64,000 bases of DNA from Methanotrichaceae archaeon (GTDB lineage: Archaea; Halobacteriota; Methanosarcinia; Methanotrichales; Methanotrichaceae). The stretch lies in NCBI GenBank assembly GCA_013178225.1, contig JABLXE010000014.1:1-64000 (forward strand). Direction: 5' to 3'. A program made the position numbers and the translations under genes. Of the stretch, positions 38,435 to 64,000 are shown piece by piece (position 1 is the first letter of the stretch; the number at the start of each line of letters is the position of its first letter). Below the pieces are notes generated by a model. It was not told where the DNA came from. It saw only the letters and a list, made by a program, of their open reading frames with translations, and did not search any database.

Positions 38435-39088
38435 TCAGGTGCACCTCAGCCAGTCCGTCTCCTCCTCCGCCTGCGAGGTGTTGAGCAGAAGCTCGATGTA
38501 CTTGTCCACCGAGAAGACTCCTGTCAAATCCTCCCGGCTTCCTCCTATCTGGAGATAGCGTCCGTGGCTTTCCGGCTCAGTCTTAATGGATCTCCAACCG
38601 ATGTGGGCGACGCCGATCACATCGGAGCTGAGCTGGGCTTGCAGCGCAAATCTGGTGTCGTTTCCGATGGACCGGACCTCGGTGTCCTTCTGCAGGTGCT
38701 CGGCGCGATCGTAGGACTCAGTCATCACCGCTCCGATGTCGTAGTTCTTGACACACAGCTGGTCCCGCCATTTGCGGTCGTAGGTCCCGGTCTGGTAGCT
38801 GACCGGGAAGTACTCGAACTCCGCGGCCTGAGTGAAGTTGATTGAGTTCAGGCTCGCGTCCAGCTCGAAGGTGGTGCGGCCGTAGGCGCTTCCGGAGCCC
38901 TGGGTCCTCTGAGACAGCTTCTGGCCGCTGTCGCCGGAGGCGGTCTCACCGAAGACCTCATGGCTCTGGTATCCGACTCCTTTGACGGTCAGGCTCTCGA
39001 AGACATAATCCGCACAGACCGCGGTTCCCAGATACACAACCACGGCTAATAGTGCCAATGCCTGAACCTGCAAAACCTCTCCCCGCAC
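38435..39088 (-). CDS. Exported protein of unknown function
   Basis: A 217-residue protein with a signal peptide ('ALALLAVVVYLGTAVCA', cut near residue 26) and a mature part rich in Thr, Ser and aromatic residues, likely beta-rich ('DYVFESLTVKGVGYQSHEV', 'SAYGRTTFELDASLNSINFTQ', 'TRFALQAQLSSDVIGVAHIGW'). Family not recognised; it looks like a lineage-specific surface protein. A TATA-like 'ATATTTTTAAG' centred near 39112 puts the start of transcription at the GTG 39088, so a leaderless message is likely. The TTG five codons in is an alternative. Confidence 0.7.
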   Translation of the reverse strand: MRGEVLQVQALALLAVVVYLGTAVCADYVFESLTVKGVGYQSHEVFGETASGDSGQKLSQRTQGSGSAYGRTTFELDASLNSINFTQAAEFEYFPVSYQTGTYDRKWRDQLCVKNYDIGAVMTESYDRAEHLQKDTEVRSIGNDTRFALQAQLSSDVIGVAHIGWRSIKTEPESHGRYLQIGGSREDLTGVFSVDKYIELLLNTSQAEEETDWLRCT

Positions 39089-61603: not shown

Positions 61604-61613
61604 CCTATAAATA
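61604..61613 (+). promoter_or_regulatory. TATA box of the repeat-protein gene
   Basis: CCTATAAATA on the + strand. With ATG at 61695 the expected leader is about 60 bases, longer than for neighbouring genes and AT-rich, with 'GAGG' about ten bases before the ATG. Confidence 0.5.
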
Positions 61614-61694: not shown

Positions 61695-62264
61695 ATGGCG
61701 AGAAAGGCAATATGCATCTTGATCTGCATTTTATCCTTGAGCACAGTTGCTCTAGGCAGCGGAATACCCCAAAACGGCTATAATATCGCCAATGCGAACG
61801 ACTGTTGCTCGAAACCTTATTGCAGTCCTTGCTGCGGTTTCAAAGGTTATAACCAGATAAATCAGAACCTCAACCAGAATGCTCTGGGTGCCGGAGGCTT
61901 CGGCTACGCACCGGGAGGATTTGTATGGCTTCCCCAGAACGGCATTAACATTGCCAATGCCAACGGCGGGAACAACCAGATAAACCAGAACCTCAACCAG
62001 AATGCTCTGGGTGCCGGAGGCTTCGGCTACGCACCGGGAGGATTTGTATGGCTTCCCCAGAACGGCATTAACATCGCCAATGCCAACGGCGGGAACAACC
62101 AGATAAACCAGAATAATAACCAGAACGCATTGGGCATGAGCGGCTACGGTTTCGGCCCATACGGGCTGGTCTGGATTCCCCAAAACGGCATCAACATTGC
62201 CAATGCCAACGGAATGGGCAACAACATAAACCAGGAACTGAACCAGAACGGGTTCGGCTACTGA
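61695..62264 (+). CDS. Exported Asn/Gln-rich 41-residue-repeat protein, amyloid-like
   Basis: A 189-residue secreted protein: signal peptide 1-22 ('MARKAICILICILSLSTVAL'), then four tandem units of about 41 residues starting at N27, N82, N123 and N164. Each unit has 'NGINIANANGGNNQINQNLN' followed by 'QNALGAGGFGYAPGGFVWLP'. Unit 1 has a cysteine-rich insert (C37, C38, C43, C46, C47). Units 1 and 2 are near identical in DNA, so a recent duplication is likely. The alternating Asn/Ile/Ala pattern resembles curlin-type beta-arch repeats, so I infer an amyloid or beta-solenoid. Methanothrix sheaths are known functional amyloids, but this is not the described sheath protein as far as I can tell. 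Confidence 0.75.
   Translation: MARKAICILICILSLSTVALGSGIPQNGYNIANANDCCSKPYCSPCCGFKGYNQINQNLNQNALGAGGFGYAPGGFVWLPQNGINIANANGGNNQINQNLNQNALGAGGFGYAPGGFVWLPQNGINIANANGGNNQINQNNNQNALGMSGYGFGPYGLVWIPQNGINIANANGMGNNINQELNQNGFGY
61852..62097 (+). repeat. 123-bp tandem coding repeat
   Basis: Two nearly identical 123-base copies (61852-61974 and 61975-62097) inside the repeat-protein gene, with only a few base changes. A third and fourth copy further on are more diverged. The near identity suggests recent unequal exchange or slippage, so copy number may vary between strains. Confidence 0.8.
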
Positions 62265-62349: not shown

Positions 62350-62910
62350 ATGACTAACATCCGGTCCATCGTACTCATCCTGGTGTACTCTGCATTGGTC
62401 GCGGCCCTGGTTCTGCCTCAGTGCCTGGACCTGGCCTCAGGTGCAATTGGCCTTTACCAGATCGAAAGCAGATCCGCTGAGCAGCACACTCTGGGACAGC
62501 ACGCTGCCCATAACGCATTTGGAGGGAGCAGCTATACGATGGAAAGCCGGCCTTCCCAGATCGGCATCAATATCATCAACGGCGATGTCAACGGCACAAC
62601 TCAGAGCATCGATCAGGGATTTTGTGGGCCCGGACAGAAGGCCGATGGGATGCAGCCGGGTGGTTTTATCCCGGTCAGCACTCAGGGCAGAAGCTTCGAG
62701 AGCGAGGCGCCGGTGGCAATCAACATCGTAAACATCAATTACGGAAACCTCTTCGGAAAGAGAGAGCCGCAAACCCTGGACCGGAGCAGCCCCTATGCCG
62801 GCATGACCGGCATGAAAAACGCTCTGCAGCAGATGGCCGAGCGTGCTTGCAGAACTGAGCAGGAGCGCAAGGATAACCTGGACCTTCTAATGCGCATTGC
62901 CCGCAGATGA
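62350..62910 (+). CDS. Exported protein sharing INIxN motif with the repeat protein
   Basis: A 186-residue protein with a hydrophobic N-terminal signal or anchor ('IVLILVYSALVAALVL', residues 7-22). The middle has 'SQIGINIINGDVNGTTQSIDQ' and 'VAINIVNINYGNLFG', which echo the 'GINIANAN' start of the repeat-protein units. The C-terminal 40 residues are charged and helical ('QQMAERACRTEQERKDNLDLLMRI'). I do not recognise the family. It follows the repeat protein by 85 bases on the same strand and may assemble with it as a nucleator or anchor (inference). Confidence 0.65.
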   Translation: MTNIRSIVLILVYSALVAALVLPQCLDLASGAIGLYQIESRSAEQHTLGQHAAHNAFGGSSYTMESRPSQIGINIINGDVNGTTQSIDQGFCGPGQKADGMQPGGFIPVSTQGRSFESEAPVAINIVNINYGNLFGKREPQTLDRSSPYAGMTGMKNALQQMAERACRTEQERKDNLDLLMRIARR

Positions 62911-63020: not shown

Positions 63021-63030
63021 TATTTATACT
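63021..63030 (+). promoter_or_regulatory. TATA box of the edge gene
   Basis: TATTTATACT on the + strand. The start codon ATG 63051 lies about 25 bases from its centre, so the message is expected to be leaderless. Confidence 0.6.
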
Positions 63031-63050: not shown

Positions 63051-64000
63051 ATGGACGAAACGATCTTCAACGGCAGGAGAACATTTCGGGGACTGTTGAT
63101 ACTTCTGATCATCTCTATTATCCTCCCCGCTTCCGCTTCTGAGGCTTCGGAGTATGCTTTCGGCAGCAAGGTCCTGCCTCAAGATCGTGATTTAGGAAGT
63201 GTTCTCAAGAATATGCCGGACGGCACCATGGTGAGCTTCTGGGATATAGGAACCAATGTCGGAATTTACGATGGGGACGACGTGGTTTACCTGGATACGC
63301 CACCTGTCGGCATCGTCAACGCCAATGACCTGCGGCTTGTGCCGTTTAAGGGATTTATGGCAGGGAGCAAGGTGGTGCCTGATGACAAAGACATGAACTC
63401 GCCGCTCTTGCCTCTTTCTGCGGAGATGCGCTTTCTGAATACCAACAGCGACCAGTCCTATGATCTGAATGATCCCGTGTATCTCCATCAATCTTATTCG
63501 ACTTCTCTGGAAATTTCGGTGCCTCTGGACGATTCAATGCTTTTGGACGATTCAATGCCTTTGGGGACAGACCCGGGAGCGTATCTCGATCAGCCCGCCG
63601 CTCAGACGCCGCCCGTCGAAGAACCTGCGGCCGTATCCGATATATCCAATGATGCTGCAAATGTAGCCAGCATCGAGAATGCCACATCCAATGCCGGCTG
63701 CGGCCAAACGGGCGGGGGCGATCCCGGACCGGGCAATGGCTTCTGGGAGCGCCTGCCATATAGCGGCAGCTGCACCGATCTGCCTCTGGGATCGATGTGC
63801 CTGGTTTTCTCCGACGGCTTCCGGTGGCTTGTGTCCGACTATTGTCTCGACTGCCGTCCTGTGGTGGTGGGATTTTACAACAGTCTTCCGATCGAGGTCA
63901 TCAGCTGCGATTATGCCGACTATTATCACATACTTCAGACCTATTATGTGAGTTCGGTCTCCAAGCAGCAGAAGCTGTACGTGCAGTCAGCTCCCTATAC
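63051..64000 (+). CDS. Exported repeat-domain protein, cut by the window end
   Basis: The first 316 residues of a secreted protein; no stop before the window ends. Signal segment: 'GLLILLIISIILPASAS' (cut near 31). Then two similar domains: one begins 'FGSKVLPQDRDLG' and ends 'GIYDGDDVVYLDT'; the second begins 'AGSKVVPDDKDMN' and ends 'NTNSDQSYDLNDPVYL'. The Asp/Asn loops resemble calcium-binding EF-hand or dockerin loops. Next come a linker with repeated 'LDDSM', a Pro/Ala-rich stretch and a cysteine-bearing domain ('SGSCTDLPLGSMCLVF', 'CLDCRPVVVGFY'). Likely a surface protein. A TATA 25 bases before the ATG makes it leaderless. Confidence 0.7.
   Translation, partial: MDETIFNGRRTFRGLLILLIISIILPASASEASEYAFGSKVLPQDRDLGSVLKNMPDGTMVSFWDIGTNVGIYDGDDVVYLDTPPVGIVNANDLRLVPFKGFMAGSKVVPDDKDMNSPLLPLSAEMRFLNTNSDQSYDLNDPVYLHQSYSTSLEISVPLDDSMLLDDSMPLGTDPGAYLDQPAAQTPPVEEPAAVSDISNDAANVASIENATSNAGCGQTGGGDPGPGNGFWERLPYSGSCTDLPLGSMCLVFSDGFRWLVSDYCLDCRPVVVGFYNSLPIEVISCDYADYYHILQTYYVSSVSKQQKLYVQSAPY

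Follow-up and report, generated by a model that had tools for sequence, protein, structure and literature searches.

The first gene of a three-gene cluster at the end of the window, which is the whole 64,000-nucleotide stretch of Methanotrichaceae DNA analysed here, specifies an Asn/Gln-rich protein composed of 41-residue repeats (gene 1; Table 1), and this protein is a candidate for an archaeal functional amyloid built of repeats, plausibly working like curli or Fap while belonging to neither family. To the reading that gene 1 and the adjacent gene 2 provide the major and the minor subunit, respectively, of a curli/Fap-like extracellular fibre made from a separate repeat family, we assign somewhat more than even probability. 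Functional amyloid of archaea has so far been known mainly from sheaths. If the proposed reading is true, major acetate-using methanogens possess a second, unannotated repeat family with a curli/Fap-like pair of subunits, which would have solved the same problem in its own way and whose members would be candidate components of the adhesive matrix in methanogenic aggregates.

Gene 1 and its repeat units

A previous reading of the window from its letters (the sequence-only reading) had described an Asn/Gln-rich 41-residue repeat protein with a signal peptide at this location, and its open reading frame, period and composition have all been confirmed. The repeats are established by a lag-41 self-identity of 0.62, compared to a best lag of 0.27 in any of 1000 shuffles, and the mature protein consists of 23% N, 19% G and 9% Q with 2.4% charged residues. 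Residues 1 to 21 (MARKAICILICILSLSTVALG) are judged by inspection to be a Sec-type signal peptide, in agreement with that reading, and export is plausible. Each full unit is resolved by a position-specific scan into a core of 26 residues (QNGINIANANGGNNQINQNLNQNALG) and a Gly/aromatic insert of 15 residues, the cores being spaced 41 residues apart because this insert (AGGFGYAPGGFVWLP) is present. The four units and the five-cysteine insert in the first of them, both claimed previously, are present, the 41-residue unit being refined to an arrangement of core plus insert. The consensus of the core across 42 units, Q-x-[GA]-h-N-h-A-x-h-x-G-x-x-N-x-h-x-Q-x-h-x-Q-x-A-x-G (with h being hydrophobic), defines a Methanotrichaceae Asn/Gln repeat group, and gene 1 carries it.

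Orthologs of gene 1 are present in Methanosaeta sp. PtaU1.Bin112 (L027; 235 aa, one additional unit) and Methanothrix sp. STF2_18 (L028; 194 aa); the units and their spacing are retained, and the number of units differs by one, as in CsgA families. The order of genes 1, 2 and 3 is kept in both, and the genes upstream of gene 1 are unlike those of the window. The window and L028 proteins share 65% amino-acid identity (dN 0.27; dS 4.1, saturated), and L027 compared to L028 gives a dN/dS of 0.22. Orthology and constraint are thus established, and because the orthologs have the same downstream neighbours and the dN/dS indicates constraint, gene 1 is a real gene under strong purifying selection and no low-complexity noise.

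A profile search retrieved gene 1 from 3 of 50 Methanotrichaceae genomes, and a wider search of 393 genomes sampled from the phylum found none beyond its own genome; relatives were likewise absent from the viral contigs, plasmids and phages searched. Pfam and NCBIfam scans of the proteins produced chance-level or sub-threshold matches only, and the matches from PDB sequence searches were unrelated repeats. Most of the weak genome matches (L005-L016, L018-L020 and L023) were discarded, being unrelated proteins or translations in a wrong frame. With 34-43 Asn each, the three gene 1 proteins contain 0 N-glycosylation sequons, which is a minor observation since Ser/Thr are scarce in the window copy.

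Table 1 Features of the gene cluster, and an SH-type gene, in the window
Feature	Position	Strand	Description
SH-type gene	38435..39088	-	57% identity to Mthe_0668 over the C-terminal part
TATA-box-like element TATAAATA	61606..61613	+	~80 bases 5' of the gene 1 start; putative promoter, from reading of the sequence
Gene 1	61695..62264	+	ATG at 61695, stop at 62264; 189 aa; Asn/Gln repeat protein, plausibly exported; orthologs L027:7791-8498 and L028:2499-3083
Signal peptide, residues 1-21	61695..61757	+	Predicted cleavage between ALG and SG; inspection and AlphaFold helix 3-19
Unit 1 (residues 25-65)	61767..61889	+	Core broken by Cys insert
Cys-rich insert DCCSKPYCSPCCG (residues 36-48)	61800..61838	+	Cys 37, 38, 43, 46, 47; two Cys columns invariant in orthologs
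Gly/aromatic insert 1 AGGFGYAPGGFVWLP	61890..61934	+	Missing from 30-residue relatives
Core unit 2 (residues 81-106), QNGINIANANGGNNQINQNLNQNALG	61935..62012	+	Unit scan
Gly/aromatic insert 2	62013..62057	+	Unit scan
Core unit 3 (residues 122-147)	62058..62135	+	Unit scan
Gly/aromatic insert 3	62136..62180	+	Unit scan
Core unit 4 (residues 163-188)	62181..62258	+	Unit scan
Gene 2	62350..62910	+	186 aa; one core unit, charged C-terminal tail; plausibly exported; candidate minor subunit with a nucleating or capping role
Core unit in gene 2 QIGINIINGDVNGTTQSIDQ	62557..62616	+	Weak in the window genome, clear in orthologs
Second strand-like motif in gene 2, AINIVNINYG	62716..62745	+	Conserved in orthologs
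TATA-box-like element TATTTATA before gene 3	63021..63028	+	Conserved in L027 and L028
Gene 3	63051..64000	+	~440 aa, past the window end to contig position 64377; exported-protein family

Genes 2 and 3

Each of the three genomes with gene 1 or gene 2 has both, the two being separated by ~10 bases in L027 and L028 and by 85 bases in the window. That gene 2 shares the repeat of gene 1 is established: comparison of the two profiles gives an hhalign E of 6.4e-6, the gene 1 profile (A1) finds gene 2 with E ~0.002 in two genomes, and the gene 2 profile (A2) matches gene 1. The gene 2 orthologs contain one clear core (QNGLNIVNINGKAGYINQSLNQNY), with unit-scan scores of 57-61, followed by a second strand-like segment, INFFNINYG (INIVNINYG in the window), and the core of the window copy is degraded and stands at threshold only (17.7 bits for a cut of 17.7). 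Gene 2 evolves faster than gene 1, its orthologs having ~30% identity to the window copy; in these orthologs the C-terminal tail is charged, and 19-21% of the residues are charged overall.

The sequence-only reading had placed gene 1 at the head of a three-gene cluster of exported proteins, of which the gene order is real; the single grouping is qualified by gene 3, which is probably a transcription unit with its own promoter, given the conserved TATA-like element 5' to it. The gene 3 family comprises exported proteins in 12 of 26 genomes searched, with several copies in many Methanotrichaceae, and has no Pfam match. Its members (in the window, and at L027:9292-10491 and L027:10785-12176) have GSKV...NDVRL segments in repeated form and a D-x-NGNGLYD motif that resembles a Ca site.

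Kinship with 30-residue repeat proteins of the Methanotrichaceae

Two other Methanotrichaceae protein sets contain the gene 1 core at intervals of 30 residues and lack the insert. An unannotated family of exported proteins of 230-250 aa with this spacing (for example L070:1492-2217, L089:3765-4493 and G000:C23:105246-105932) is present in 15 of 50 Methanotrichaceae genomes, including the window's own genome (G000:C23) and a genome of 1,879,471 bases; among the 393 genomes sampled from the phylum, it is confined to the Methanotrichaceae. The longest array seen is that of a 449-aa protein of genome G037 (L004:643-1992, minus strand) with ~14 near-identical 30-residue units. This kinship is established by an ungapped alignment of the gene 1 core with its 30-residue kin (z ~6-7 relative to composition-preserving shuffles) and by comparison of the gene 1 profile with that of the family (hhalign E 1.8e-6, probability 90%). 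The family shares with gene 1 the 26-residue core and signs of export, but differs from it in the 30-residue spacing, the missing Gly/aromatic insert, an extra non-repeat C-terminal half and a wider distribution. Scans of the core-bearing proteins, being gene 1 and the 30-residue kin, returned no convincing Pfam family.

Also of the 30-residue family are L088:3738-4451 (on the minus strand, as is L089:3765-4493) and L063, and a homologous exported protein of ~490 aa (36% identity) is located near a gene of this family in two genomes. Two additional Asn/Gln-rich exported proteins of the window's own genome, one of ~700 aa on contig C3 (L083:1447-3597, plus strand) and one of 309 aa on C28 (L002:904-1833, minus strand), are distant matches to the same repeat profile, and this genome may contain at least four such proteins. 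The clustered short frames at another locus (L102, G016:C1 671342-677851), in which VSILVFLELALR / FNPCFPGTRSS is repeated, probably result from reading a CRISPR-like array of direct repeats as open reading frames.

Predicted structure

Structure prediction of the mature chain, which had been proposed as a check on the sequence-only reading, returned an all-beta 41-residue repeat at modest confidence. The AlphaFold2 runs used three-sequence alignments, with one of five models being reasonable per run. The model of the mature L027 chain (pLDDT 66, pTM 0.63) is free of helix and has, in a regular pattern, three strands per 41 residues, one long, one short and one of medium length, and the window protein (P0001; pLDDT 56, pTM 0.46) follows the same strand pattern. 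In a Foldseek search of 350,542 PDB chains with the P0001 model, the top three matches were FapC, FapC and a CsgA fibril (E 0.025, 0.15 and 0.52), none of them significant, and FapC also ranked first, again without significance, for the L027 model (E 0.37); the TM-scores of these FapC and CsgA matches were negligible. Against viral models Foldseek produced nothing significant, a few of the matches being named 'Curlin associated'. The predicted structures are taken to be compatible with a beta stack, and nothing beyond that is read from them.

Comparison with curli and Fap

The minimal curlin repeat is X6QXGX2NX10 (PMC3521004), and its signature QxGxxN has 0 matches in gene 1, gene 2 or their orthologs. 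The curlin family PF07012 was absent from the protein scans at E<=1-10 and had no match above cut-off in 50 genomes, and the gene 1 core aligned with CsgA repeats (entered by hand) at chance level (z 0.45). Accordingly, of the claim that the protein is curli-like, the Asn/Gln repeat design, the all-beta model and the linked repeat-sharing minor subunit stand, and membership of the curlin family, for which a profile search had been suggested, does not: it is plausible that gene 1 works like curli, and the statement that it is curli fails. The archaeal cell is not known to have an outer membrane that would accommodate a CsgG pore. Similarities to CsgA/CsgB include head-to-tail Asn/Gln repeats, a GxxN segment per unit and a major/minor pair in one cluster; gene 1 differs in the absence of QxGxxN and of a PF07012 match and in a unit of 41 rather than ~20 residues. 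Archaea are not wholly without precedent for curli-like repeats, since the HMM hits of earlier work included one archaeal protein in which such repeats are regularly spaced (PMC3521004).

In FapC, imperfect repeats that are 38-39 residues long and have conserved Asn/Gln contribute one cross-beta layer apiece (PMC12392863), and FapB is its smaller homologous partner (PMC3792158). The minimal Fap repeat, X15GX4NX3GX6NX7 (PMC3792158), is represented through the pattern GX4NX3GX6N in 2 of 3 full units in the window and in 7 of 7 units of the orthologs (shuffle p 0.036). Kinship with FapC was considered on account of a GINIA/GVNVA resemblance and the Foldseek ranking, and was rejected as it failed composition controls: FapC repeats, the sequence of which was taken from PDB alignments, score below the shuffle mean when aligned with gene 1 (z -0.3 to -0.8, p 0.6-0.8 in composition shuffles). 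On inspection, the neighbours seen around gene 1 do not resemble fap genes. Gene 1 and gene 2 are like FapC/FapB in their predicted export, in having imperfect repeats (~39 residues) in which Asn/Gln/Gly are conserved and in pairing a major with a smaller repeat-sharing subunit, but gene 1 differs in a similarity not above composition, a 41-residue period (26-residue core plus insert), the lack of long linkers and its archaeal origin. Gene 1 together with gene 2, which holds a single core and a charged C-terminal tail, has the layout of the CsgA/CsgB and FapC/FapB pairs.

Comparison with sheath proteins

In the 1,879,471-base genome we located the probable SH genes Mthe_0668/0667 as well as the probable MspA (Mthe_1069; 575 aa, 60.9 kDa), their assignment being based on size, mass, gene order or position and a neighbouring S-layer-type gene. 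Gene 1 has no similarity to the probable MspA (blastp E>=1.7, negative phmmer score) or to the highly transcribed SH proteins of Mthe_0668/0667 type (blastp E>=2), nor do genes 2 and 3 resemble either probable type. The window's genome carries ~10 SH-type genes away from gene 1, of which the one at 38435-39088 lies in the window, and their identity to Mthe_0668 reaches 83%. SH proteins occur in all Methanotrichales according to Medvedeva et al. (PMC11576556). The SH core is characterized by two six-stranded antiparallel beta sheets and the gene 1 model by all-beta 41-residue repeats at modest confidence. Gene 1 resembles the SH proteins and MspA as a candidate exported amyloid-type protein of the same archaeal family, but differs in its undetectable sequence similarity and in its presence in only 3 of 50 genomes. 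For these reasons, and because SH genes are found elsewhere in the genome, gene 1 is not the sheath protein; the remark that the major sheath protein is not obviously matched holds true, the suggestion of a minor sheath component is not supported for a general one, and a species-specific accessory role is possible.

Alternative readings and the proposed fibre

Among the other readings, a monomeric beta-solenoid surface adhesin or coat protein, having the same stacked fold in a capped, non-polymerising form and presenting its Gly/aromatic loops outward as a binding face, is unlikely but not negligibly so. It would share the predicted beta repeat, and its cap could be the Cys-rich N-terminal segment; the GLUG motif (PF07581), which occurs in bacterial adhesins, is seen below threshold in all three orthologs (17.8 bits in the window, 12.3 and 14.5), none of which reaches the gathering score of 20.5 bits. 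However, units that are almost identical and carry very little charge point to end-to-end stacking, neither an obvious cap domain nor a membrane anchor is present, and the linked single-unit partner is left unexplained. Rather less probable is an accessory role, limited to a few species, in the tubular sheath or the spacer plugs, where the protein would assemble together with the SH hoops and disulfides would hold it in place. Members of the Methanotrichaceae are sheathed, the window also contains an SH-type gene, the plug proteins are unknown (PMC11576556), sheath disassembly requires DTT (PMC6242892) and gene 1 has conserved Cys, but the missing sequence similarity to SH proteins or the probable MspA, the restriction to 3 of 50 family genomes, which makes gene 1 no required part, and its location outside any SH cluster argue otherwise. 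That gene 1 came from bacteria by horizontal transfer and is a divergent but true curli or Fap protein is largely refuted and highly improbable: the Fap minimal pattern in window and ortholog units speaks for it, but the pattern count, when tested against shuffles, is largely explained by composition, the FapC, CsgA and PF07012 results are all negative, and the nearest kin are other Methanotrichaceae proteins.

The working proposed for the fibre formed by genes 1 and 2 follows the FapC/FapB precedent, given one cross-beta layer per repeat and a smaller partner. Against the fibre reading count the three-sequence basis of the structure models, the non-significant Foldseek matches, the lack of similarity to FapC or CsgA beyond composition and, in the window, the threshold-level core of gene 2 and its distance of 85 bases from gene 1. 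The gene 1 product would be exported through Sec, after which the core of each unit would form a beta-arch consisting of a strand (INIANAN), a turn (GGN) and a second strand (NQINQNLNQNA). Arches of successive units would then plausibly stack, with Asn and Gln lining up as ladders and the 15-residue Gly/aromatic segment looping out or giving a short edge strand, and monomers would add end to end at the open ends of the stack in a plausible polymerisation. The product of gene 2, with its one core and charged C-terminal tail, would plausibly nucleate, cap or anchor this presumed surface fibre, and the Cys of unit 1 may cross-link it.

A more tentative extension, possible rather than probable, is that the Methanotrichaceae have their own Asn/Gln-ladder functional amyloid family, independent of curli, Fap and the sheath and with separately evolved major and minor subunits, in which the repeated Phe/Tyr/Trp loop of the window form would constitute an aromatic ladder along the fibre that could have a part in contact between cells or even in the transfer of electrons within aggregates.
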